This document shows positions 11,744 through 57,893 of a DNA stretch of 64,000 bases, in pieces. Every line of letters starts with the position of its first letter. The stretch's first letter is position 1. A model generated the notes under the pieces. It was not told where the DNA came from. It saw only the letters and a list, made by a program, of their open reading frames with translations, and did no database searches. The position numbers and the translations under genes are program-made. The stretch spans positions 99,276-163,275 of the forward strand of contig CACEHK010000001.1 of NCBI GenBank assembly GCA_902559305.1, written 5' to 3'. This DNA is from an uncultured Pelagibacteraceae bacterium (GTDB lineage Bacteria; Pseudomonadota; Alphaproteobacteria; Pelagibacterales; Pelagibacteraceae).

Positions 11744-12880
11744 ATGTCTGAAAGTAAAACTTCAGTTAAAATTAAAAGCCCTAAAAATACAAATACAATT
11801 TTTGGGCTTCCAGCAAAATCATATACCGATAACGAATTTTGGAATAAAGAATGCGAAACTGCATTAGCTGATGGTTGGCTATTTATAGCTTTTGCTCACG
11901 AATTTAAAAAAGTAGGAGATGTTGTTCCAGTTTATATTGCTGGAAAACCTATCCTGCTAATTAAAAATGAAGAAAATAAAATTACGGCCTTTCATAATGT
12001 TTGTAGTCACAGATGTTTAAAATTAGTAGATGAAAAAAAAAATATTGGTAAGTTAATTCGATGTCCTTATCATTCTTGGACATATGATCTTCAAGGAAAT
12101 TTAAAAGCCGCTCCACACATTGGAGGAACAAATGTACATAAACCCAAAGGATTTAATTTTAAAAATCATGGTTTAAAGCCAATAAGAATTCATATTTGGC
12201 ATGATTGGATATTTGTAAATATTAATGGAAAAGCAAAAAAATTTAAAGAATACGCAAAGCCTTTAATTTCAAAATTTAAAGATTTAGACTTAAATAAAAT
12301 AAAGTATGCGGCAACTTTAGATTTTGGAAAAATTAATACAAATTGGAAGTTTCTTATTGAAAATTTTATTGAACCATATCACGTTCAATTTGTTCACAAA
12401 ACAACAACTAATCAACCACTGAAAGATCATTATACAATTGTGGATGGGATTTGTTATGGAAGTGGAGTTAACGTTGATAAAGAAGATAATAAAAATAGTA
12501 ATGCTTTATCCGTATCTTCTAAGTATCTTTCTTTGTTTCCAAACTTCATAATTGGAACTTATTATCCTAATCAAATAGGTGTATATTTAAATATTCCTAT
12601 TGGACCAGGTATTACAAGCCAAAAAAGAATAATATACTCCACTGAGGGAAAATCTATGTCTAAAGAAGAGATTGATATTACAAAGAAGATATGGTGGAGT
12701 GTACATAAGGAAGATCATGAAATGTGCGAAAGATTACAAGAAGGAAGATCATCACCAGCTTCAAATGATGGTGGGCTACTATCTCCGCACTGGGAAAAAG
12801 GAGTTCAAAAATTTCAAAAATTAATAATACAAGCAACTATGAAATCAAAAAAAATAATGAAAGGTAAAAAAAATGTCTAA
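11744..12880 (+). CDS. Rieske non-heme iron oxygenase, choline/carnitine/betaine-type alpha subunit
   Basis: 378 residues. Rieske ligands are C87, H89, C107 and H110 (NVCSHRCLKL, IRCPYHSW); the catalytic iron site is N207, E210, H213 and H218 in NWKFLIENFIEPYHVQFVH. The glutamate between the bridging Asn and the ligand His, and the overall length, are like choline monooxygenase, carnitine oxygenase CntA and glycine-betaine or stachydrine demethylases, i.e. enzymes acting on quaternary amines. That substrate class is an inference. AGAAGGA precedes the ATG. It is first in a plus-strand operon; its stop overlaps the next gene by eight bases. No reductase is encoded alongside. Confidence 0.9.
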   Translation: MSESKTSVKIKSPKNTNTIFGLPAKSYTDNEFWNKECETALADGWLFIAFAHEFKKVGDVVPVYIAGKPILLIKNEENKITAFHNVCSHRCLKLVDEKKNIGKLIRCPYHSWTYDLQGNLKAAPHIGGTNVHKPKGFNFKNHGLKPIRIHIWHDWIFVNINGKAKKFKEYAKPLISKFKDLDLNKIKYAATLDFGKINTNWKFLIENFIEPYHVQFVHKTTTNQPLKDHYTIVDGICYGSGVNVDKEDNKNSNALSVSSKYLSLFPNFIIGTYYPNQIGVYLNIPIGPGITSQKRIIYSTEGKSMSKEEIDITKKIWWSVHKEDHEMCERLQEGRSSPASNDGGLLSPHWEKGVQKFQKLIIQATMKSKKIMKGKKNV

Positions 12881-13289
12881 AAATGTAAATGAAGGATATA
12901 GGCTGGCTCATACAATGATAAGAGTAAAAGATTTAGAAACTTCTTTTAACTTTTATTGCAAAACTCTAGGAATGAAAGTTTTAAGAAAAACTGATTATCC
13001 TGATGGAAAATTTACTAATGCATTCATTGGTTATGGACTTGAAAATGAATCCCCATGTCTTGAATTAACGCATAATTGGGATCAAAAAGAAGATTACGAC
13101 AAAGGAAATGGATGGGGTCATATTTGCATAGAAACTCCTGATGTATATAAAGCTTGTGAAGATCTTACAAAGCTTGGGGTTAACATTACTCGTAAGCCAG
13201 GTCCAATGAAACATGGAACAAGGGTAATTGCTTTTTGCGAAGATCCAGATGGTTACAAAGTTGAATTAAACGAACCAATTAAAATATAA
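12873..13289 (+). CDS. gloA: Glyoxalase I (lactoylglutathione lyase)
   Basis: 138 residues of the vicinal-oxygen-chelate fold, with both beta-alpha-beta modules. Metal ligands line up as His13 (RLAHTMIRV), Glu64 (CLELTHN), His83 (GWGHICIE) and Glu131 (YKVELNE), as in bacterial nickel glyoxalase I. The enzyme isomerises the hemithioacetal of methylglyoxal and glutathione to S-lactoylglutathione. FCEDPDGYKVEL is the usual C-terminal signature. It overlaps the Rieske gene, so in this operon it may detoxify a 2-oxoaldehyde made by the pathway or act on a related thiol adduct. Confidence 0.92.
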   Translation: MSKNVNEGYRLAHTMIRVKDLETSFNFYCKTLGMKVLRKTDYPDGKFTNAFIGYGLENESPCLELTHNWDQKEDYDKGNGWGHICIETPDVYKACEDLTKLGVNITRKPGPMKHGTRVIAFCEDPDGYKVELNEPIKI

Positions 13290-13306
13290 AATTGAAAGGA
13301 ATATTA

Positions 13307-13702
13307 ATGTCTAAAGAACCACAACTCTATAAATTTAAAGATATTGAAAATAGACTTCATACATTAGAACCAGGAAAGTCTTACATAAAACCGTTTGTTA
13401 CGAGTAAAGTAAGTAACACTATGTGTGGAGGATTAAATTTTTTAAACAAAGTTTCTGTTCCCTGGGATTTAACTTGTGATGAAATTATTTACTGCATGGA
13501 AGGAACGTTCAGACTAACTTGCGATGGTAAATCTTACGTTTGTAACCCTGGAGATGTACTTTATATTCCAAAGGATAATCATATAGCCTACGAATGTGAT
13601 GAAAAATGTGTAATATTTTATGCTGCTTATCCTCATGATTGGAAGCAAAAAGCTGGTATAACATTTGTTCCTGGAATTGACCCAGAAGATATGCCAAAAT
13701 AA
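13307..13702 (+). CDS. Cupin-domain protein (EutQ-like)
   Basis: About 131 residues from ATG 13307, which has AAAGGA upstream; the ORF-track start at 13292 is a TTG inside that ribosome site region. It is a single cupin: EIIYCMEGTFRLTCDGKSYVCNPGDVLYIPKDNHIAYECDEKC, with G(X)5H-type motif 1 lacking its usual two histidines and motif 2 PGDVLYIPKDNHIAYE keeping one. That pattern is seen in EutQ-like cupins of ethanolamine utilisation. Its job here, between glyoxalase and a glutamine-synthetase-like ligase, is unknown; acting on or sensing a small amine adduct would fit. Confidence 0.75.
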   Translation: MSKEPQLYKFKDIENRLHTLEPGKSYIKPFVTSKVSNTMCGGLNFLNKVSVPWDLTCDEIIYCMEGTFRLTCDGKSYVCNPGDVLYIPKDNHIAYECDEKCVIFYAAYPHDWKQKAGITFVPGIDPEDMPK

Positions 13703-13710
13703 TTTACCTA

Positions 13711-15132
13711 ATGAAAAATAAAATATATTACGAAAATTTTAAAGACGCTATTGAGAGAAATAGGAAAAAAATTCCTGCAGTTCACAAAAAACTTAAAGCT
13801 GCTGGCGTACAATATGTAATGTCGAGCTGGATAGATTTGCATGGTATTCCAAAAACTAAACCTGTACCGATGAGTGATTTTGAACAACTATGTTTAGGTA
13901 AAGGACCTCAGTTTGCAGTACACTCAATATCTTTTGTACCTGAATTAACTCCTGCTGACTCTGACCAAATAATGTTGCCAGATTTAGATAGCGTTTATAT
14001 TTGTCCTTGGGACAAAACAATGGCTATAATTTTTGCAGATCTTTATTGGGAAGATAAACCTTATAATGTTTGTCCAAGACAAGCTCTGAAGCGCGCAATG
14101 CAAAAAGCACAGGACGCAGGTTACAAAGGAATGTGTGGTATTGAACCTGAATTTATTGCAATGAAGTATGGAGAAGATGGAAAACCAGTTAAAGCTATTG
14201 ATAGTGATCCAATAAATGGAATAAGACCAAGACGACAAGCATTTGGTTATGATGTTGAATATTCATTAGACTCTATGCATTTTTTAAAAGAATTGATTGA
14301 TATTCTTGAAGAACTAGGATGGAATTTACATGATGTAGTTGCTGAAGGAGCTTATTCACAATTTGAGTTAGATTTTCATTATACAAATTTATTAGAAATG
14401 GCAGATAGATTAGTTTTCTTAAGAATTCTTTTAAAAGAAATTGCTAAAAAAAATAATATGTTCATTACTTTTATGCCGAAACCTACAATAGGAGACTGGA
14501 GATCGGGAGCACATATAAATTTTTCAATGGAAGATGTAAATAAACCTGGAAAAAATATTTTTACTGATGGAAAAGGTTGGTCAAAACAATCAAAACATGC
14601 AGTTGGTGGACTTATGAAAAACTCTGAAGCATTAACAGCAATAACATGTTCAACAGTTAATTCATACAATGGTTTAGTTCCTAGAGTTGGAGGATTTGAA
14701 GGAGGAACTGTTACTTGGGCACCAACTAATATTACATATGGTCACAATAATAGATCTGCACAGTTTCGTTTACCACAAAACAGATATTGTATTGAAAATA
14801 GAGCAGCAGATATGACAATGAATGTTTATTTGGCTTTAGCTATGACAATATCTTCTGTAATGGACGGCATAAAAAATAAAATTGATCCAGGTAAAGCAAC
14901 TGATCAGGATTTATATCAAATGACAGACGCTGAGTTTAAAAAGTTAGGAATTAAAAGATTGCCAAAAAATCTAATGCAAGCAATTGAGGCTTTAAGAATT
15001 AATAAACTATCTGATGAAGTTATGGGGCCTGTAATGAAAAAATCTTTTATATCTTATAAAAATGATGAGTGGGAGCGTTACCATCAAGCAGTTACAGATT
15101 GGGAAGTAAAAGAGTATCTAAGACTTTACTAA
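13711..15132 (+). CDS. Glutamine-synthetase-like ligase (GlnT / gamma-glutamylamide synthetase type)
   Basis: 473 residues of the GS fold: short N-terminal beta-grasp domain (QYVMSSWIDLHGIPKTKPVP) and the C-terminal ATP-guanido-like catalytic domain with CGIEPEFIAM, ELDFHYTNLLEMADRL, SGAHINFSM and FRLPQNRYCIENRAADMTMN. The canonical glutamate-binding region is divergent, as in type III GlnT, gamma-glutamylmethylamide synthetase and gamma-glutamylanilide synthase. It most likely joins glutamate to an amine with ATP rather than acting as the housekeeping GS. Neighbouring Rieske genes recall aniline catabolism, where such a ligase activates the amine before oxygenation. Substrate is undetermined. 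Confidence 0.85.
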   Translation: MKNKIYYENFKDAIERNRKKIPAVHKKLKAAGVQYVMSSWIDLHGIPKTKPVPMSDFEQLCLGKGPQFAVHSISFVPELTPADSDQIMLPDLDSVYICPWDKTMAIIFADLYWEDKPYNVCPRQALKRAMQKAQDAGYKGMCGIEPEFIAMKYGEDGKPVKAIDSDPINGIRPRRQAFGYDVEYSLDSMHFLKELIDILEELGWNLHDVVAEGAYSQFELDFHYTNLLEMADRLVFLRILLKEIAKKNNMFITFMPKPTIGDWRSGAHINFSMEDVNKPGKNIFTDGKGWSKQSKHAVGGLMKNSEALTAITCSTVNSYNGLVPRVGGFEGGTVTWAPTNITYGHNNRSAQFRLPQNRYCIENRAADMTMNVYLALAMTISSVMDGIKNKIDPGKATDQDLYQMTDAEFKKLGIKRLPKNLMQAIEALRINKLSDEVMGPVMKKSFISYKNDEWERYHQAVTDWEVKEYLRLY

Positions 15133-15135
15133 TTA

Positions 15136-16146
15136 ATGAAAAAGCATGAAAAGTTTAACTTAGGAAATATTAAACTTTTATCTGGAAAAATTTTAAAATC
15201 AGCACAATTAATTTACAAAACATACGGTAAATTAAATAAAGACCGTTCAAATGTAATAATTCTTCCTACATTTTATACCGGTAGTCATATTAGAAATGAA
15301 GGCTTTATAGGTAAAAATAGAGCAATTAATCCAAATAAATATTTTATTGTATCAATTAATATGTTTGGAAATGGTCTATCTTCTTCACCGACGAAAGCTA
15401 CTAAATCTCAATCTGGTTCAAAATTTCCAACAATAACGTTGTGGGATAATATTTATTGTCAGCACAAACTTATTGCTGAAAAACTGAAAATTAAAAAAAT
15501 TGCTCTAGTTACTGGTTGGTCTATGGCTGGTTGTCAATCTTATCAATGGGCAGCTCAGTATCCTGGTATGGTTAAAGCAATTCTTCCTTTTTGTGCATCA
15601 TCAAAGACTTCGATACACAATCATGTTTTTTTAGAAGGTGTTAAAGCAGCACTTACTGCTGATAAAAAATTTAATAAAGGAAATTATAAAAAACAACCTG
15701 TCGAAGGATTAAAAGCATTTGGAAGAGTTTATGCAGGGTGGGCTTTCTCTCAGGATTTTTATAGAGAAAAACTTTATAAAAAATTTGGTTTTAAAAATGC
15801 TGAAGAATTACTTAAAGACTGGGCAAATGATCATGCTAAAAACTGGGATGCTAATAATCTTTTGTCTAAACTTAAAACCTGGCAGTTAAATGATATTAGC
15901 AAAGGTCCTATTTATAAAAATAATTATATAAAAGCTCTTAAATCAATAAGAGCAAAAACAATTCTTATGCCATGTAATCAGGATTTATACTTTAGAACTG
16001 AGGATAATAAATTTGAAAAAAAATTTATATCTCGTTCATCTTTAAGACCTGTAGATTCTCCATACGGTCATTGTGCTGCTAACCCTGGAAATGACATAAA
16101 TTTTGAAAAGCAACTAGATAAAAACATTAAAGAGTTGCTTAATTAA
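15136..16146 (+). CDS. MetX-like alpha/beta-hydrolase-fold protein
   Basis: 336 residues of the homoserine O-acetyltransferase (MetX) branch of the alpha/beta hydrolases. The nucleophile elbow is GWSMAGCQ with Ser129; a late Asp (PCNQDLYF) and His (PYGHCAANPG) complete the triad. The oxyanion/entry region LPTFYTGSHIRNEGFIG replaces the longer MetX signature, and the protein is shorter than true MetX. It could hydrolyse an ester or amide, such as a gamma-glutamylamide made by the ligase three bases upstream, or transfer an acyl group. It ends the first half of the island. Confidence 0.8.
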   Translation: MKKHEKFNLGNIKLLSGKILKSAQLIYKTYGKLNKDRSNVIILPTFYTGSHIRNEGFIGKNRAINPNKYFIVSINMFGNGLSSSPTKATKSQSGSKFPTITLWDNIYCQHKLIAEKLKIKKIALVTGWSMAGCQSYQWAAQYPGMVKAILPFCASSKTSIHNHVFLEGVKAALTADKKFNKGNYKKQPVEGLKAFGRVYAGWAFSQDFYREKLYKKFGFKNAEELLKDWANDHAKNWDANNLLSKLKTWQLNDISKGPIYKNNYIKALKSIRAKTILMPCNQDLYFRTEDNKFEKKFISRSSLRPVDSPYGHCAANPGNDINFEKQLDKNIKELLN

Positions 16147-16160
16147 TATCTTAAAAAACA

Positions 16161-16188
16161 TTGAAAATTTATCAGAAGAAGATAGTAT
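16161..16188 (+). promoter_or_regulatory. Candidate internal promoter of the monooxygenase operon
   Basis: TTGAAA (16161-16166), 16 bases, TAGTAT (16183-16188). It lies just after the MetX-like gene and would start transcription near 16195, giving an 85-base leader ahead of the flavin monooxygenase gene. Confidence 0.4.
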
Positions 16189-16194
16189 CATTTT

Positions 16195-16279
16195 ATAAAG
16201 CGATACATAACTCGTCGTAATTTCTTAAGTACGAAAGTGGGATCGGTCGTCTTTAAATTAATTTTTAAAGGAGGCTTTA
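16195..16279 (+). promoter_or_regulatory. Structured 5' leader, riboswitch-like candidate
   Basis: Three helices can be drawn. P1 pairs AAAGCGAU (16197-16204) with GUCG-U-CUUU (16246-16254), with one bulged U. P2 is UCGUA/UACGA (16215-16219 / 16230-16234) with a 10-base loop. A third hairpin CUUUAAA/UUUAAAG (16251-16257 / 16264-16270) sits directly on the GGAGG ribosome site and shares CUUU with P1, so P1 and this hairpin exclude each other. The GC-richer core ACGAAAGTGGGATCGGTCGTC stands out in the AT-rich spacer. I could not match it to a riboswitch class I know. Confidence 0.4.
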
Positions 16280-17449
16280 ATGAAATTTGGTTACTTCTGT
16301 AACACTACCAACTGGACACACAAACCTTACGATAAACTTTTAGACGAAACTAGAGAAATTACAGAATATTGTGATCAGAATAAATGGAATTCAATTTGGT
16401 ATACAGAACATCACTTTAATCATGAAGGAATGGAGTCTTTAACTAATCCATTAATGATGGGTGTTGATGCTGCGGCTAGAACAAAAAATATTAGAATAGG
16501 TCAAGCGTGTAATGTAATTACTTTTCATAATCCAATTAGAATGGCTGAAGATATTGCTCTTCTTGATCAATTATCAAAAGGTAGAGTTGAAGTTGGAATA
16601 GGAAGAGGAATTTATGGAAGAGAAGCAATAAACTTAAATAAAGAAGCAGACATGAAAGACCAGGCAAAAAATTTTAGACTTTTTGAAGAAACTCTAACAA
16701 TTTTAAAAAAAGCGTGGAAAGAAAAATTTTTTAATCATAAAGGTGAGTTTTATACTTATCCTGCTCCCAATTATGTTTGGCAACATGATATGAGTCCACC
16801 AAATAAAGATTTAGTTAATCTTGAGACAAGTGTTATGGAAAATATAAGTGTTCTTCCAAAACCCTATCAAAAGCCTTATCCTGCTATACACCAAGTAGTC
16901 GATGGAATTAGATCTATTGAATGGGCTGCAACACAAGGTTTAAATATTATAATGTGGATACCTACAGTTAAGGCTTTAAAAATTAAGTTTGAGGCATTTA
17001 AAAATGCAAAATCAGAGGCAGAAAAAAGAAATGTACCAATGGGTGAAGGTATTTCATTGGTAAGAGACATGTTTGTTGCAGATACAATGGAAGAAGCAAA
17101 AGAAAAAGCTGGTGAACACATGGTTAACTATATGAGATGGGTCTGTCATTGGAGAGGTCTTGGAAACCACATGGACCCAGGCGAAGAACTACCTGTTACT
17201 AAAGGTAAACTAGATTTATTAAGCTACGAATTTCTTCATAAACGTAACATGCTATTCGGGACGCCCGAGTATGTAATAGATAAAATTCACGAACTTAAAT
17301 CTGAATTAAATCTACAAAATTTACAAGTATGGTCTAATTTTCCTGGCATTAAACACGAGGACTGCATGAAGAGTATCAAAATGTTTACTGAAAAAGTAAT
17401 GCCTCACTTCAAAGATGATTTGGATACTGAAGTTAAAAAAGTTTCGTGA
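16280..17449 (+). CDS. Luciferase-like flavin-dependent monooxygenase
   Basis: 389 residues, bacterial-luciferase-like TIM barrel (LLM). The N-terminal MKFGYFCNTTNW, WYTEHHF (about 41-47), IRIGQACNVITFHNPIRMAEDIALLDQLSKGRVEVGIGRGI are diagnostic. Such enzymes use reduced FMN from a separate reductase and O2 to oxidise aldehydes, N-heterocycles, sulfonates or polyamines. A strong AAGGAGG lies 5 bases before the ATG, and a structured leader precedes it. It begins a five-gene operon in which each gene overlaps or nearly touches the next; its TGA overlaps the GTG of the ThDP enzyme. Confidence 0.88.
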   Translation: MKFGYFCNTTNWTHKPYDKLLDETREITEYCDQNKWNSIWYTEHHFNHEGMESLTNPLMMGVDAAARTKNIRIGQACNVITFHNPIRMAEDIALLDQLSKGRVEVGIGRGIYGREAINLNKEADMKDQAKNFRLFEETLTILKKAWKEKFFNHKGEFYTYPAPNYVWQHDMSPPNKDLVNLETSVMENISVLPKPYQKPYPAIHQVVDGIRSIEWAATQGLNIIMWIPTVKALKIKFEAFKNAKSEAEKRNVPMGEGISLVRDMFVADTMEEAKEKAGEHMVNYMRWVCHWRGLGNHMDPGEELPVTKGKLDLLSYEFLHKRNMLFGTPEYVIDKIHELKSELNLQNLQVWSNFPGIKHEDCMKSIKMFTEKVMPHFKDDLDTEVKKVS

Positions 17450-19143
17450 TCAAATCTAAGAACCTGACTGGTGGTCAAGCCGCAATTAAATCATTAAAAA
17501 AAGAAAAAGTTAAACATGTTTTTGGCTTAATAGGTTCTGCTACAATGGAAATGTTTGATGCTCTTTATCATGAAAAAAATATAAAATTTATTGGTGTCCG
17601 AGATGAGAGAACTGGAACGCATATGGCCGATGGATATGCAAGAGCATCTAATCAACCAGGTATAATACTTGCTGGACAAAATGGTCCTGGTGCAACAAAT
17701 CTAGTTACCGGACTTGCTCAAGCAAAAGCAGCTTTTTCTCCAGTTGTTTCAATTGCTGGTTCATATTCTACAAAAGATAAAATGGAAGATGCTTTTCAAG
17801 GTCTTGATCAACAATCTTTATTTAAACCAGTAACAAAAAAAACTTGGACTGTAAAAAATGCTAAAAAAATTCCAAAAACTTTTAGTGATGCTTTTAAATT
17901 AGCAATGTCTCCTAGGAGGGGACCAGTTTGTATTAATCTACCAAGAAATATATTGGCAGATAAAGGAAATTTTAAAATCAATGAGAAAAATCAATCTTTT
18001 GATAATCAAAACTCAACCAAAGCAAAATCTAATTATATAAAAAAAGTTGTAAAGATTATCAATAATTCAAACAAAACTGTTATTATTGCTGGTGGTGGAA
18101 TTAAATATAATTCTAAATATAAAAATGTAGTTAAATTGGCAGAATTGTTAAACGTCCCAATAGTAACTGCGGCTGGTCATGGAGATGCTATACCATTTAA
18201 TCATAAACTAAATGCTGGACAAATGGGTCCAAGAGGTAATCCAGTTGCATCTAAACTAGTTAAAGAAGCAAGCGTTATAATTGCTCTTGGAACAAGACTG
18301 GGATTTAATTCAACTTTTTATTCTTACGAAAATATAAATAAAAGAGCAAAGATCATACAAGTTGAATTAGAAAAAAGAATGATAGGAAGATACTTTCCTG
18401 TAGCAGTAGGAATTTATGGAGACGCTGCCACAATAGCCGATCAATTATATAAAGAAATCAAGAAGCAAAATATTGCTCTTGATATAAAAAAATGGACCAA
18501 TAACTATTTTAATGAAAGAAAAAATTTTTTGCTCAACAGAGATAAATTTAAACAGAAAAATTTTCCTATTCAGCCCAATGGCTTGTTTAAACAATTAAGA
18601 CAAGTGCTTCCTAAAAACTCTGCAATAACTTTAGATGCAGGTACACTTTGTTTACAAGCGACAGATGCTCTTGAATATTATGATCCCCCATCTTTATTTA
18701 CCCCTTTAGACTTTGGTTTGGTTGGTTTTTCTTTTGCATGTGGTTTAGGTGTAAAGATTGCAAAACCTAATAAAAAAGTAATTAGCCTAATGGGAGATGG
18801 GGGTTTTGGAATGACAATTTCAGAATTAAGTACGGCTGTTGAGTATAAGATAAATACAATAACTATAGTCATGAATAATAAAAGTTGGGGAGCTGAAAAA
18901 GCTTATCAAAAAGATTTTTATGGAAAAAGATACTTAGGAGCTGATATTAGCAGTCCACCTTTTGATAAAGTTGCAGAGCTATATGGTGCTAAAGGTTTTA
19001 AGGTTAAAAAAGTTTCAGAAATAAACCAAGCAGTTAGAGAAGCTTTAAAAATAAACAAACCTGTAGTCATTGATGTTGATGTAGATCCAAAAGCACTATA
19101 CAGTTTTAGAAGAGATAGTTTTAAACATAGATCAAAAAAATGA
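17446..19143 (+). CDS. Thiamine-diphosphate enzyme, acetolactate-synthase / Xsc-like
   Basis: 565 residues with the three domains of the ThDP oxidase/decarboxylase family. The catalytic Glu54 is in VRDERTGTHMADGYARA; the ThDP motif GDGGFGMTISELSTAVEYKINTITIVMNN begins at 450. The housekeeping acetolactate synthase is encoded separately (ilvB, ilvH), so this copy is catabolic. Sequence such as HVFGLIGSATMEMFDAL and LAGQNGPGATNLVTG resembles sulfoacetaldehyde acetyltransferase and related lyases more than IlvB. It should cleave or ligate a 2-oxoacid or 2-sulfoaldehyde, giving an aldehyde or acetyl phosphate. Starts with GTG, overlapping the upstream stop by four bases. Confidence 0.85.
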   Translation: MIKSKNLTGGQAAIKSLKKEKVKHVFGLIGSATMEMFDALYHEKNIKFIGVRDERTGTHMADGYARASNQPGIILAGQNGPGATNLVTGLAQAKAAFSPVVSIAGSYSTKDKMEDAFQGLDQQSLFKPVTKKTWTVKNAKKIPKTFSDAFKLAMSPRRGPVCINLPRNILADKGNFKINEKNQSFDNQNSTKAKSNYIKKVVKIINNSNKTVIIAGGGIKYNSKYKNVVKLAELLNVPIVTAAGHGDAIPFNHKLNAGQMGPRGNPVASKLVKEASVIIALGTRLGFNSTFYSYENINKRAKIIQVELEKRMIGRYFPVAVGIYGDAATIADQLYKEIKKQNIALDIKKWTNNYFNERKNFLLNRDKFKQKNFPIQPNGLFKQLRQVLPKNSAITLDAGTLCLQATDALEYYDPPSLFTPLDFGLVGFSFACGLGVKIAKPNKKVISLMGDGGFGMTISELSTAVEYKINTITIVMNNKSWGAEKAYQKDFYGKRYLGADISSPPFDKVAELYGAKGFKVKKVSEINQAVREALKINKPVVIDVDVDPKALYSFRRDSFKHRSKK

Positions 19144-19727
19144 AATTAGAGTTAAGAAAATTTACAAAATTTGTTGATAAAACATTTATAGAAGGTGGAA
19201 AAGAGGCAAAAGAACCTGTGTTGCTAGTTTCTGTAGCAGCAGTTTTTAAAAATCCTTGGCACGGTCAAGGATTTGTTGAAGATCTTAAACCTGTAATTTT
19301 AGATTTAGCTCCAAAACTTGGGGATATTTTAGTTCCAGAATTAATAAAAGAAATTGGTTCGCCAGAAAAAATTCTAGCTTATGGTAAAGCAGGAATTGTC
19401 GGTTTAAATGGAGAGATCGAGCACGCATCTGCATTTATTCATACTTTAAGATTTGGAAATAAATTTAGAGATGCGGTGGGTGGAACATCTTATTTAAGTT
19501 TTACTAATACAAGAGGGCCTGCAGGATCAAAAATTTCTATACCAATGATGCATAAAACAGATTCTGGATTAAGACCATATTATCTAACTCATGAATTTAC
19601 TATTCATGATGCTCCATTTGATAATGAAATAGTAATTGCTATTGGCGGAGCTTCTAGTGGAAGAGCTCATGCAAGAACAGGTGATAGATATCAAGATATG
19701 AAAGAAATGGGCATTAAACCTAAATAG
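19140..19727 (+). CDS. AA_synth (DUF1185) family protein
   Basis: 195 residues matching the AA_synth / DUF1185 family in length and in motifs such as AAVFKNPWHGQGFVEDLKP, AYGKAGIVGLNGEIEHASAFIHT and IGGASSGRAHARTGDRYQDM. Biochemical function of the family is poorly defined despite its name. Its ATG overlaps the stop of the ThDP gene (ATGA), which ties it to the same step or complex. The family is often found beside flavin monooxygenases and ThDP enzymes in soil and marine Proteobacteria, as I recall; that would make it an isomerase or hydrolase of a pathway intermediate, an inference. Confidence 0.82.
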   Translation: MKLELRKFTKFVDKTFIEGGKEAKEPVLLVSVAAVFKNPWHGQGFVEDLKPVILDLAPKLGDILVPELIKEIGSPEKILAYGKAGIVGLNGEIEHASAFIHTLRFGNKFRDAVGGTSYLSFTNTRGPAGSKISIPMMHKTDSGLRPYYLTHEFTIHDAPFDNEIVIAIGGASSGRAHARTGDRYQDMKEMGIKPK

Positions 19728-19731
19728 ATAA

Positions 19732-20505
19732 ATGATCAATGCTAAAGATTCTAAAAATACTTTCTATATTCTAAATAAAAAAGAGAACACTCCAATAGTT
19801 TTAATTCACGGTGTAGGACTTAATCATAAAATTTGGGAGCCCCAGATTAATTCATTTAATAATACTATCTTGGCATATGATATCTTGGGACATGGAAACA
19901 CACCCTTAACAAAATCACAAATAAGTTTTGATGATTTTTCATTACAATTACTAAATTTAATTGATGAACTAAAGTTTGAAAAAATACATTTAGTTGGTTT
20001 TTCAATTGGTTCATTAATAGCAAGGAATTTTGCCTCCAAATATAATAATAGATTAGAGTCTTTAACTTTGCTTTGCTCAGTTTTTCAAAGAAGTAATGAG
20101 CAGCAACAAATAGTAAATGATAGATTTGAATTATCAAAAAAAAGTAGATCTTTATCAAAACAAGCTCTTAAGAGATGGTTCACAGATGATTATATAAATA
20201 AAAATCCAAATATTTATGAAAAAATTTGTTCTATGCTTGAAGAAAATGATATGGAAAATTTCCTAAAAGTTTATGAACTTTTTGTTAAGCACCAAGATAA
20301 TGAAATATTTGAAAATATAAAAACTAAAACATTAGTTATGACTGGAGAAAATGATATTGGATCAACACCGGAAATGTCCCAAAATTTAAGTAAAAAAATC
20401 CCTAATTCTAAAGTTAAAATAATAAGCAATGGAAAACATCTCTGTAGTATTGAGTGTGCAGATGATGTAAATAACGCTATTAAGGAACATATAAAAAATG
20501 ACTAA
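19732..20505 (+). CDS. Alpha/beta hydrolase (enol-lactonase-like)
   Basis: 257 residues, classic alpha/beta hydrolase. IVLIHGVGLNHKIWEPQI holds the HG oxyanion motif at about 25-26, nucleophile elbow LVGFSIGSL gives the catalytic Ser near 91, acid in TLVMTGENDIG, and His in NGKHLCSIE near the end. Size and motif pattern recall 3-oxoadipate enol-lactonase and RutD-type hydrolases. It likely opens an ester, lactone or carbamate formed after flavin-dependent oxygenation. It lies 4 bases after the AA_synth gene and overlaps the aldehyde dehydrogenase start. Confidence 0.85.
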   Translation: MINAKDSKNTFYILNKKENTPIVLIHGVGLNHKIWEPQINSFNNTILAYDILGHGNTPLTKSQISFDDFSLQLLNLIDELKFEKIHLVGFSIGSLIARNFASKYNNRLESLTLLCSVFQRSNEQQQIVNDRFELSKKSRSLSKQALKRWFTDDYINKNPNIYEKICSMLEENDMENFLKVYELFVKHQDNEIFENIKTKTLVMTGENDIGSTPEMSQNLSKKIPNSKVKIISNGKHLCSIECADDVNNAIKEHIKND

Positions 20506-21979
20506 ACTTAAGCAATATAAAATGTTTATCGATGGAGAATGGGTAGACTCTGATACTAAAAAAACTTTTGAAACTTTAAATCCAGAAAATAATAAGCCAT
20601 GGGCTGTAGTTCCTGAAGCAAGTGCAAATGATGTTGATAGAGCAGTGAAAGCAGCACAGAAAGCATTTGAAGGAGAATGGCCAAAGTTACTTCCACGAGA
20701 AAGAGGAAAATATTTAAGAGCAATAGCGGATAAACTTAGAAAGAATGCTGAGTTACTTGGAGAAATTGAAACTATTGATACTGGAAAATTATTTAGAGAA
20801 ACAAAAAAGCAAGCAAACTATATTGCAGAATATTATGACTATTATGCTGGTATGGCGGATAAAGTTGAGGGAACAGTTTTACCTGTAGATAAACCAAATA
20901 TTCAAGCAATAACAACAAGAGTGCCAATAGGTGTTATAGCTGCAATTATTCCTTGGAACTCGCAGATGTTATTAACAGTAACTAAGCTAGCTCCTGCATT
21001 AGCTATGGGAAATACTGTTGTCATAAAGTCATCTGAGTTAGCTCCAGCAGTATTATTTGAGTTTGCAAAATTAGTAGAAGAAACAGGAATACCAAAAGGT
21101 GTTGTAAATGTTATTACAGGTTATGGTGATCCATGTGGAAAAGCACTAACAACACATAATTTAGTTGAAAAAATTGCTTTTACAGGAGGTCCTGAAACTG
21201 CGAGACATATAATTAGAAATTCAGCTGAAAATTTATCTGAAGTAAGTCTGGAACTTGGGGGAAAAAGTCCTGTAGCAGTATTTGAAGATGCTCATCAAGA
21301 AAATGCAATAAATGGAATTACCGCAGGAATTTTTGGTGCAAGTGGTCAAAGTTGTATTGCTGGTTCAAGATTATATTTACAAAAAGGAATTTATAATGAA
21401 TTTCTAGATAAGCTTGCTGCAAGAGCAGAAAAAATAAAAATTGGTGCACCTATGGATCCTGAAAGTGAAATGGGGCCAATTGGTAATTTTAAACAATTAG
21501 AAATAATAGAAAAAAATATTAAATTAACTGTAGAACAAGGTGGAAAAATTAAATGCGGAGGTAAAAGACATTCATTTTCAAATGAAGGATACTATTTTCC
21601 TCCAACAATTATTGAGTGTGATAATCATAATCTTCCAACAGCAGAAAATGAACTTTTTGGTCCAGTGCTATCTGTAATGAAATTTGAAAATGAAGAAGAA
21701 GTAATAAATAAAATGAATGATAACCAATACGGTTTATCATCTGGAGTTTATACTAGTGATTTTTCAAGAGGCATGAGAGTTTCAAAAGCAATAAGAGCAG
21801 GAATTACATTTGTAAATACTTATAGATTAATTTCGCCATCAGCTCCATTTGGAGGAATGAAGGATAGTGGATATGGTAAAGAGGCTGGAATTGAATCTAT
21901 AAAAGATTATACAAGAGTAAAAACAACTTGGTATTACACTTCAGATAAACCAACTCTTGATCCATTTTCAATGAGATAG
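20498..21979 (+). CDS. NAD(P)-dependent aldehyde dehydrogenase
   Basis: 493 residues of the ALDH superfamily, betaine-aldehyde/hydroxymuconic-semialdehyde branch by style. Key residues are Glu252 in LELGGKSP and nucleophile Cys286 in GASGQSCIAGSR; the cofactor site IIPWNSQM and TGGPETARHI are present. It oxidises an aldehyde to the carboxylate with NAD(P)+, a sensible last step after the ThDP lyase or monooxygenase. Its ATG overlaps the hydrolase stop, and it closes the five-gene operon. The C-terminal SAPFGGMKDSGYGKEAG signature is intact, so the gene looks complete. Confidence 0.92.
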   Translation: MTKLKQYKMFIDGEWVDSDTKKTFETLNPENNKPWAVVPEASANDVDRAVKAAQKAFEGEWPKLLPRERGKYLRAIADKLRKNAELLGEIETIDTGKLFRETKKQANYIAEYYDYYAGMADKVEGTVLPVDKPNIQAITTRVPIGVIAAIIPWNSQMLLTVTKLAPALAMGNTVVIKSSELAPAVLFEFAKLVEETGIPKGVVNVITGYGDPCGKALTTHNLVEKIAFTGGPETARHIIRNSAENLSEVSLELGGKSPVAVFEDAHQENAINGITAGIFGASGQSCIAGSRLYLQKGIYNEFLDKLAARAEKIKIGAPMDPESEMGPIGNFKQLEIIEKNIKLTVEQGGKIKCGGKRHSFSNEGYYFPPTIIECDNHNLPTAENELFGPVLSVMKFENEEEVINKMNDNQYGLSSGVYTSDFSRGMRVSKAIRAGITFVNTYRLISPSAPFGGMKDSGYGKEAGIESIKDYTRVKTTWYYTSDKPTLDPFSMR

Positions 21980-22092
21980 TTCAGTTTGGGCTCATTTATT
22001 GCTGTTAAAAACATTAAATTTATCTATTGATATTATTTTTAGATCATATTTAATTTTGTTTATATAAATTGTTAACAATTAAAGGAAAAATT

Positions 22093-23283
22093 ATGAGAAA
22101 ATTAATTTTAGCTGCATTCTTATTTGTTTCTTCAATGACAACAAATACTTTTGCGGACGGACATGGAATTAAAATGGGAATCATTTTAGGTTTCACAGGT
22201 CCGATTGAATCACTTACACCAGCTATGGCTGCTTCTGCTGAGCTCGCATTTAAAGAGGCTTCAGATTCAGGATCATTACTTGGTGGAAAGAAAATATCAG
22301 TAGAAAGAGCTGACTCAACTTGCGTTGACTCTGCTGCTGCTACAACTGCTGCTCAAGGATTAGTGGACGGAGGCGTTGTCGCTATTATGGGAGCTGACTG
22401 TTCTGGAGTTACAGGTGCAATTGCAACTAATGTTGCTGTGCCAAATGGAGTAGTAATGATTTCTCCATCTGCAACTTCTCCAGGATTAACTACTCTAGCC
22501 GATAACGGGTTTTTCTTTAGAACTGCTCCGTCAGATGCAAGAGGTGGTGCAATCTTGGCTGACATTACTAAAGACAGAAAAGTTAAAAGTGTAGCAATTA
22601 CTTATACAAATAATGACTATGGTAAAGGTTTATCAGATGTTTATGAAGCAGCTGTTAAAGCACATGGCATTAAAGTAACTACTGTTCTTGCTCACGAAGA
22701 AGGTAAAGGTGACTACTCAGCTGAAGTAGCAACACTAGCGTCTGCTGGTGGTGATGCTGTAGCTGTCTTAGGTTATCTTGACCAAGCTGGAGCTCAAATT
22801 ATTCAGGGTTCTCTAGATGCAGGATCATTTGATAGATTTATTTTATCTGATGGTATGATCGGAGACTCATTAACTGATAAGTTTGGTAAAGCTTTAAACA
22901 AATCATTTGGTTCTCTACCTGGATCAACTGGAAAAGGTGCTGGAGTTTTTGCTGATGTAGCAAAAGCTGCAGGTATTGATTCTTCAGGTCCTTACACGGG
23001 CGAGTCATATGATGCTGCTGCTTTAATCACTCTTGCTATGCAAGCTGGTGGAAAAGCTGACAGAGCTACTATTCAAGCAAACGTTATGGCCGTAGCAAAT
23101 GCACCTGGTAAAAAAATCTACCCAGGTGAATTAGGAAAAGCTTTAGATTTATTAGCTAAAGGAAAAGCCGTTAACTATGAAGGCGCAACAGGTGTTGAAT
23201 TTACTGATGTAGGTGAAGCATTTGGTTCTTTCTTAGAAAAAGAAGTTAAAGGCGGTAAATTCAAAACTAAAAAACAAAGATAA
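22093..23283 (+). CDS. Branched-chain-amino-acid-type ABC transporter substrate-binding protein
   Basis: About 396 residues from ATG 22093, which follows AAAGGAAAAA; the ORF-track start at 22069 is a TTG. The signal peptide MRKLILAAFLFVSSMTTNTFA is clear, then a type I periplasmic binding fold (KMGIILGFTGPIESLTPAMAASAELAFKEA). Codon use is less AT-skewed and more regular than its neighbours, as expected for a highly expressed binding protein. A strong terminator follows. It has no permease on its own strand; the convergent livGFHM operon ending 119 bases away is the likely partner. Ligand unknown; the catabolic operon just upstream suggests it captures that pathway's substrate. Confidence 0.9.
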   Translation: MRKLILAAFLFVSSMTTNTFADGHGIKMGIILGFTGPIESLTPAMAASAELAFKEASDSGSLLGGKKISVERADSTCVDSAAATTAAQGLVDGGVVAIMGADCSGVTGAIATNVAVPNGVVMISPSATSPGLTTLADNGFFFRTAPSDARGGAILADITKDRKVKSVAITYTNNDYGKGLSDVYEAAVKAHGIKVTTVLAHEEGKGDYSAEVATLASAGGDAVAVLGYLDQAGAQIIQGSLDAGSFDRFILSDGMIGDSLTDKFGKALNKSFGSLPGSTGKGAGVFADVAKAAGIDSSGPYTGESYDAAALITLAMQAGGKADRATIQANVMAVANAPGKKIYPGELGKALDLLAKGKAVNYEGATGVEFTDVGEAFGSFLEKEVKGGKFKTKKQR

Positions 23284-34847: not shown

Positions 34848-35462
34848 TTAGTAATGTTGAGTTGCAGCAATTATAACTGCTATAATTAATAAAACACACG
34901 CTGAAATTGTATTAATTACTTTTGGATTTGCTTTAATCCAAATAATTAATTTATTTGCAAGAATTGCATAACCAACAAGAGATAAAAAATCTAATACCAT
35001 ATAAGTTGTGATCAATATAAAGAATTGAATAATATAATTTGAATTAAAATCTATAAATTGAGGAAATATTAATGGAAAAAATGCCCAAGCTTTTGGGCTT
35101 GTTCCTGCTACTAAAAAACCATCCTTAAAAAATGAAAAAAAACTTTTTTTATTGTGATTAGCAGTGTTAAAATGTTTTGGTCTACTATTATAAATATCGT
35201 AAGCTAAATAAATCAAATATAAAATTCCAATCCACTTAAAAAAATTTAAAAAGTTTGGATTTTCTGAAAAAAAAGAACCTAAAACAAAAATAACTAAAAT
35301 TCCCTGAAAAAAATTTGCAGATATATCTCCTAATGCTGTCCAAATGCATTTTTGAACACCATAATTCATTGAATAAGAAATTATAACAATTCTGGGCGTT
35401 CCTGGTGTAATAAATAGAAATAAGATTATTTGAAGAAAAAGTATGTAATTCAGAGGAAGCAT
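34848..35462 (-). CDS. LysE/RhtB-family amino acid exporter
   Basis: 204 residues, six predicted helices, standard length. LFITPGTPRIVIISYSMNYG is the N-terminal family signature (PGP region, here PGT), and GFLVAGTSPKAWAFFPLIFPQFID the central one. These proteins export basic or neutral amino acids by proton antiport. There is no good Shine-Dalgarno next to the ATG; instead a long inverted repeat begins eight bases upstream and its 3' arm contains TAGGA, so translation may be controlled by RNA folding. Confidence 0.88.
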   Translation of the reverse strand: MLPLNYILFLQIILFLFITPGTPRIVIISYSMNYGVQKCIWTALGDISANFFQGILVIFVLGSFFSENPNFLNFFKWIGILYLIYLAYDIYNSRPKHFNTANHNKKSFFSFFKDGFLVAGTSPKAWAFFPLIFPQFIDFNSNYIIQFFILITTYMVLDFLSLVGYAILANKLIIWIKANPKVINTISACVLLIIAVIIAATQHY

Positions 35463-35469
35463 TTGTGAG

Positions 35470-35516
35470 GATAGTCCTAAAAAACCGGGAGCTAAAGATG
35501 GCTAGATAGGACTATC
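35470..35516 (-). promoter_or_regulatory. Long inverted repeat at the LysE start, leader candidate
   Basis: Plus strand GATAGTCCTA ... TAGGACTATC: two perfect 10-base arms 27 bases apart. On the minus strand the inner region can form AGCC/GGTT or AGC/GCT pairs. The distal arm is next to the LysE ATG and includes the only AGGA. No T-run follows either side, so it is not a simple terminator. It could be a riboswitch-like leader for an exporter or a protein-binding site. Confidence 0.4.
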
Positions 35517-35583
35517 TATAGAGGAATATACCACACCTTATAAAAATTGCATTATGGATTTTTTTAATATTTATTAAAATTCT

Positions 35584-57565: not shown

Positions 57566-57609
57566 GAATAAAATATTGAATCTATTAATTTTACTTTTAT
57601 ATTAATAAT

Positions 57610-57868
57610 GTTGGTTTTCCAACTACGACGATAAACGAATTTCGTAATAAGCATTGCGGACGTGGGGGCAGTACCCACCACCTCCACCATTTTCAACTTA
57701 TGGGGGTGAACCAGAATCGACGAGTGTCTAAAAGTTATTCTTTCGTTCGGTATTGTTCCACCGTAATGGGCTAAATTATAAATGCTAACGAAAGTTACGC
57801 AATTGCAGCTTAATTAATTTATTAATTAAGTTACGGGGTTTGGGGCACCTGGCAACAGAACGCCCCTT
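57610..57868 (+). ncRNA. ssrA: Circularly permuted two-piece tmRNA
   Basis: The acceptor piece comes first: T-stem GTGGG/CCCAC (57662-57666 / 57674-57678), acceptor strand CACCTCC, discriminator A and encoded CCA (57687-57689). After a 12-base linker the coding piece begins GGGGGTG at 57702, which pairs with CACCTCC and gives the G3-U70 pair read by alanyl-tRNA synthetase. The tag frame is GCT AAC GAA AGT TAC GCA ATT GCA GCT TAA at 57784-57813, peptide ANESYAIAA. The outer ends are approximate; a GTTGGTTTTCCAAC hairpin marks the 5' side and GGGGC...GCCCC the 3' side. It rescues stalled ribosomes with SmpB. Confidence 0.93.
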
Positions 57869-57893
57869 AAAAAATTTTACATTATATAATTTT

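Follow-up and report, generated by a model that had tools for sequence, protein, structure and literature searches.

A conserved leader RNA of Pelagibacterales, probably a translational ON riboswitch for a flavin monooxygenase operon

The 85-nt leader of an LLM flavin monooxygenase gene in an uncultured member of the Pelagibacteraceae (16195-16279 of the window, the whole 64,000-nt stretch of DNA analysed) is almost certainly a structured cis-regulatory RNA. We consider it probable that this RNA is a new Pelagibacterales-specific translational ON riboswitch regulating an LLM-(ThDP)-PF06684-hydrolase-ALDH operon, where ligand binding and the ON direction are what we infer from structure and gene context. 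The evidence comes from the conservation and covariation of the RNA, from its overlap with a hairpin that contains the Shine-Dalgarno (SD) sequence, and from its distribution across genomes.

Location and base composition of the leader

The leader sits between a MetX-like hydrolase gene, which ends at 16146, and the LLM start at 16280. The initial annotation had described an 85-nt leader in which a bulged P1 helix and an RBS-proximal hairpin share a CUUU, and the same arrangement was recovered here, the shared stretch being GUCG/CUUU. Its remark that the core is less AT-rich than the spacer also holds: the GC content is 43% in the core (16199-16251) versus 19% just upstream, and it falls to 18% in the SD hairpin. 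Folding of the leader alone was unremarkable (z = -1.51; 17 of 200 shuffles were as good) and gave no discrimination. It is the comparative evidence, not the single-sequence fold, that goes beyond chance.

An internal promoter had also been proposed. A candidate, TTGAAA-N16-TAGTAT (16161-16188, + strand), matches 9 of 12 positions and is plausible but weak, since the promoter scan found 18 such sites where 19.1 were expected from shuffles, i.e. no enrichment. Among 91 leaders of relatives, the best -10-like box stops 12 nt ahead of CGATAC in 31 and 17 nt ahead of it in 20, and the box scores were no higher than those of shuffled sequence.

Architecture of the conserved aptamer

In the leader alignment, two near-invariant blocks, AGCGAUACAUAACUC and CGAAAGYGGGAUC..GUCGUC, flank a variable hairpin. 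The interval from CUC to AAGYGGG ranges from 11 to 40 nt among 88 distinct leaders and is mostly unconserved. The aptamer is narrower than the leader (16197-16254), and what marks it out is not P1 itself but a conserved internal-loop core of 10x11 nt.

All elements lie on the + strand. P1 pairs its 5' arm AAAGCGAU (16197-16204) with a 3' arm GUCG-U-CUUU (16246-16254) in which U16250 is bulged; it was seen in alignments A1, A3 and A4 with compensatory changes, and its 3' arm doubles as the 5' arm of the SD hairpin. The 5' side of the core, ACAUAA (16205-16210), varies little or not at all across 66 diverse sequences and is the putative ligand pocket. It is followed by the 5' arm of a central helix, CUC+R (16211-16214), which pairs with Y+GGG (16238-16241) and in which CUC and GGG are invariant. 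The P2 arms UCGUA (16215-16219) and UACGA (16230-16234) are likewise supported by compensatory changes and enclose an apical loop (16220-16229) conserved in neither sequence nor length. The 3' side of the core, AAG-YGGG-AUCG (16235-16245), is nearly invariant. In window coordinates, the structure model places the internal loop at 16205-16210/16242-16245 and the AAG bulge at 16235-16237.

GUCGU is present twice, in the P2 5' arm (16214-16218) and in the P1 3' arm (16246-16250), and the GCGAU of the P1 5' arm could pair with either copy. The alternative hairpin GCGAU/RUCGU (16200-16204 with 16214-16218) was seen in energy folds and rejected, as it is not conserved in the sister family. Some folds paired 16230-16238 with the LLM codons Y-F-C-N; the window itself does not preserve this pairing, which looks like a coincidence.

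Covariation of the predicted helices

We examined the homologous leaders for covariation, as had been suggested for this DNA, and it was present. In alignment A4, 7 of 17 pairs vary on both sides, and fitting this alignment to a model somewhat favours the structure. Within P1, C-G is replaced by A-U in L120, an A-U pair is co-deleted in L184, and the top pair occurs as U-G, U-A or C-G. Within P2, U-A becomes C-G in the sister family and in L102, and G-C becomes A-U twice. The pattern was compared with a tree-aware null, in which the substitutions of each column were kept and placed randomly on the LLM tree in 500 runs. The sum G was 123.8, versus 44.6 +/- 19.3 under the null (reached in 2/500 runs), and the paired fraction was 92.9% versus 77.6 +/- 5.0 (reached in 0/500 runs); the null was thus rejected.

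The strongest single pair was 16214-16238 (R-Y), whose correlation exceeded the tree null in every run (0/500). Among the 66 sequences it occurs as G-U (35), A-U (15), A-C (15) and G-C (1), a pattern that would be expected of a wobble pair with A-C replacing G-U. The CUC/GGG helix is unproven because these bases never vary, and the lower part of P1, AAAG/CUUU, showed no covariation beyond conservation (-0.47 vs -0.40 +/- 0.07). Taken as a whole, the alignments point to a conserved aptamer core with covarying helices, as riboswitches require.

The Shine-Dalgarno hairpin and its overlap with P1

The SD-sequestering hairpin (16246-16275, + strand) pairs GUC+UCUUUAAA (16246-16257) with UUUAAAGG+GGC (16264-16275), and the SD, AGGAGG, occupies 16269-16274. 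Arm-swap energies indicate that the form of this hairpin is conserved: hairpins built from their own arms reached -9.07 kcal/mol, versus -7.22 +/- 0.22 kcal/mol for chimeric arms from relatives. In SD accessibility calculations, the average unpaired value of the SD rose from 0.23 in the intact leader to 0.64 without the P1 3' arm. In all 87 distinct leaders, the hairpin's 5' arm starts within or shortly upstream of the P1 3' strand or its extension, and never beyond the last U of the P1 3' arm. The two helices therefore compete, and the competition proposed for the window alone extends to its relatives. Given this overlap geometry, P1 formation is predicted to free the SD, which corresponds to an ON switch.

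By free energy, almost all leaders tested preferred the fold with a hidden SD when unbound. When the P1 core alone was forced, the SD became modestly accessible in some clades but showed no exposure in the clade with a long U tract (L059, L061, L066); in that clade, the model allows P1, closed by a G-U pair, to form alongside the SD hairpin. In modelling terms, the expression platform appears mutually exclusive with the aptamer helix, with mixed energetics.

The mechanism that we propose is as follows. When the ligand is absent, the P1 3' strand (GUCGUCUUU) would pair with the SD region, and the LLM operon would be poorly translated. A metabolite, probably the substrate of the operon or an intermediate formed early, would bind the internal-loop core (ACAUAAC.../...AAGYGGGAUCG) between P1 and P2. 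Its binding would stabilise P1, the SD hairpin would lose its 5' arm, and translation could start. A switch of this direction fits a catabolic operon.

Distribution of the RNA and its association with LLM

LLM orthologues were retrieved by protein search at 111 loci, and the same leader core lies upstream of the LLM start in every one; 20 further leaders from divergent Pelagibacteraceae were added to the set. A covariance model of the leader (R1) was then searched against 297 Pelagibacteraceae genomes. It gave 65 matches, of which 62 fall in exactly the 62 LLM-bearing genomes. The sole other credible match, in G042, precedes a truncated LLM pseudogene adjoining a transporter gene. The match in L188 lies within an lpxA-like coding sequence and was judged to be due to chance, and the remaining one is a weak partial match at chance level (E 0.067).

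In the order sample, the RNA was found in 14 genomes of the sister family, where it again precedes the LLM-ThDP-PF06684-hydrolase-ALDH operon in the loci examined. The LLM of this family is only 56-58% identical to that of the window, yet the leader core is kept. Of 385 class and 399 phylum genomes, the window's own was the only one to match, and the distant LLM homologues (35-44% identity) lacked such a leader. Among the genomes searched, the RNA is confined to Pelagibacterales. Viral contigs and phage records yielded no copy of it, and the window's own genome yielded no second copy.

The association with LLM is exclusive: in all intact cases examined, the RNA lies directly upstream of LLM, and the genes further upstream vary. 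The window's upstream neighbours are shared by only about a dozen of 80 loci. These neighbours, at 11744-16146, encode a Rieske oxygenase and VOC, cupin, GS-like and MetX-like proteins; most relatives lack them ahead of the RNA, and they possibly form a linked N-compound pathway.

Orphan copies in L185, L186 and L187, the second of which precedes a transporter gene, suggested other regulons at first; the idea was dropped on reading the DNA. The copy at L186:2968-3020 is followed by a truncated LLM pseudogene, and those at L185:900-951 and L187:1795-1866 have no LLM start downstream. Judged by sequence, these orphan copies look like relics that outlived their operon.

The operon and its possible ligand

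On the + strand, the gene after the RNA is always that of the LLM flavin monooxygenase (PF00296; 16280-17449). It is followed in the window by genes for a ThDP enzyme of the acetolactate synthase superfamily (17446-19143), a TgnF-like PF06684/DUF1185 protein (19140-19727), an alpha/beta hydrolase (19732-20505) and an aldehyde dehydrogenase (ALDH; 20498-21979). A LIV-type ABC substrate-binding protein gene (22069-23283) comes after the operon in the window and in many relatives, and a LIV-type transporter follows the operon in most loci mapped. The initial annotation spoke of an LLM-ThDP operon; the ThDP gene is indeed there in the window, but it is an optional member, missing in 5 of 9 Pelagibacteraceae loci mapped. 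LLM, PF06684, alpha/beta hydrolase and ALDH are present in every complete locus mapped.

Some relatives carry a gene that by sequence encodes a 209-aa class I methyltransferase-like protein between the ThDP and PF06684 genes (L198:7085, L205:7061). A maleate-isomerase/EutA-like gene lies near the RNA or the operon at L187:1934-4995, L189:8186-8929 and L203:2910, and the genes after it in L187 encode an M24 peptidase-like protein and an ABC ATPase. We take these EutA-like neighbours to resemble ectoine-catabolism genes.

The closest parallel in gene content is the trigonelline (tgn) set of Acinetobacter baylyi, which also has an LLM oxygenase, an ALDH, an alpha/beta hydrolase and a PF06684 protein in one cluster. 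Two papers that describe the set second-hand assign the PF06684 protein TgnF and the oxygenase TgnA/TgnB to trigonelline degradation (PMC7913881; PMC8269262). The tgn-type combination of LLM, ALDH, hydrolase and PF06684 is found in the window operon; a difference from the tgn set is the ThDP enzyme added in some SAR11 loci. TgnC is the ALDH and TgnD the hydrolase. A Rhizobium plasmid cluster holds the same four families plus a flavin reductase, with identities to the window's proteins of 56% for PF06684, 41% for ALDH, 32% for the alpha/beta hydrolase and 26% for LLM, the Rhizobium LLM of this last comparison not being a proven TgnB. The analogy is incomplete because a TgnA-type flavin reductase is missing: no PF01613 protein was found in the window's genome (83% complete).

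Both trigonelline and its isomer, homarine, occur as metabolites in the sea (PMC8269262); Heal et al. argue against a likely action of TgnA/TgnB on homarine. The resemblance of the gene set to the trigonelline pathway suggests, as a first guess by analogy, that the ligand may be an intermediate or a pyridinium betaine such as trigonelline or homarine. With a single regulon known, the ligand cannot be narrowed down by gene context. That the RNA represents a SAR11-order class sensing an N-methylated pyridinium osmolyte (trigonelline/homarine) or its ring-opened product, and switching on the cell's own degradation pathway, is a tentative proposal that may well prove wrong. If it is true, such sensing would occur in one of the ocean's most abundant bacterial groups.

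Transcription factors are scarce in SAR11 cells, and regulatory RNAs offer one of a small number of routes to learning what metabolites of the ocean these cells sense. If a ligand were validated, it would identify the substrate of an uncharacterised catabolic operon that about one-fifth of the sampled Pelagibacteraceae genomes carry. It would also add to the known riboswitch classes, and a specific SAR11 nutrient response could then be tested in vitro.

Alternative explanations

The most serious alternative is that the core is the binding site of a protein, regulatory or autoregulatory, which governs SD accessibility in place of a metabolite. Leaders before ribosomal protein genes have been described for SAR11 by Meyer et al. 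2009 (PMC2704228). A protein could recognise the conserved internal loop, its AAG bulge and the overlapping SD hairpin just as readily, and the pattern would look no different if the ligand were a protein. However, the genes downstream form a catabolic operon and encode neither a ribosomal nor a nucleic-acid-binding protein, and the operons mapped contain no regulator gene. Small-molecule aptamers typically show invariant unpaired sequence to the extent seen here. We regard a protein-bound leader as unlikely.

It seems quite improbable that the RNA is a translational OFF switch or a constitutive dampener, in which P1 would stack on the SD hairpin and the bound form would keep the SD hidden. 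The coexistence of the two helices in the long-U-tract clade would allow it, but the position of the best SD hairpin in all 87 leaders argues for competition, and catabolic operons normally need induction by their substrate.

A DNA operator of a transcription factor, or a leader peptide, in place of an RNA is very hard to sustain. High sequence conservation by itself would fit an operator, but conserved blocks 11-40 nt apart are incompatible with a fixed dimer site, and compensatory base-pair changes speak against both forms. The leader has no ATG, its sole GTG (16238) is GCG in 16 of 66 relatives, and comparison of these 66 revealed no conserved short ORF of a uORF or leader-peptide attenuator. 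Least credible of all is an RNA thermometer in which the AU-rich SD hairpin alone controls translation; the leader has a weak sub-threshold match to AilA_thermometer (15.5 bits versus a gathering threshold of 81), but a thermometer leaves the nearly invariant upstream core unexplained.

Comparison with known RNAs

The initial annotation did not recognise the class of this RNA and thought that it might be new. That view survived a comparison with Rfam 15, in which no family reached its gathering threshold at the leader; at E<=10, the window leader and a sister-family leader gave only trivial matches. Elsewhere in the window, the Rfam rhtB RNA, a published Pelagibacter motif, was found at 35452-35534 on the - strand (RF01814, 76.6 bits), with no such match at the leader. 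A tmRNA at 57572-57869 (+) is recognised by the alphaproteobacterial as well as the permuted tmRNA model, and a tRNA-Leu(gag) on the opposite strand overlaps its predicted end. No description of the leader motif was found in the literature, including PMC2704228 and the available part of PMC6429828; an earlier description elsewhere is possible.

The nearest counterparts are other small SAR11 leaders. Stav et al. 2019 reported the SAR11 riboswitch candidates TIGR03647, fcbT1-I/II and RS05825, which are confined to SAR11, RBS-proximal and presumed to act on translation, like the present RNA (PMC6429828). TIGR03647 likewise contains a CUUU for which pairing with the RBS is possible; RS05825, unlike the RNA described here, has three hairpins (PMC6429828). 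In the available part of that paper, these motifs precede symporter, TRAP-transporter and unknown-protein genes, and none is described before an LLM operon (PMC6429828). The association of the HIMB5 motifs TIGR03647, fcbT1 and RS05825 with the genes named there was not seen for the present RNA, which precedes LLM. SAM-V and the other Pelagibacter motifs of Meyer et al. 2009 are also small SAR11 leaders, some of them presumed translational, but they differ in their genes, namely rpsB, rpsL, ffh, methionine genes, rhtB, pntA and others (PMC2704228). The best reading is that the leader RNA represents a new riboswitch class, set apart from the published SAR11 motifs by the genes with which those have been described.
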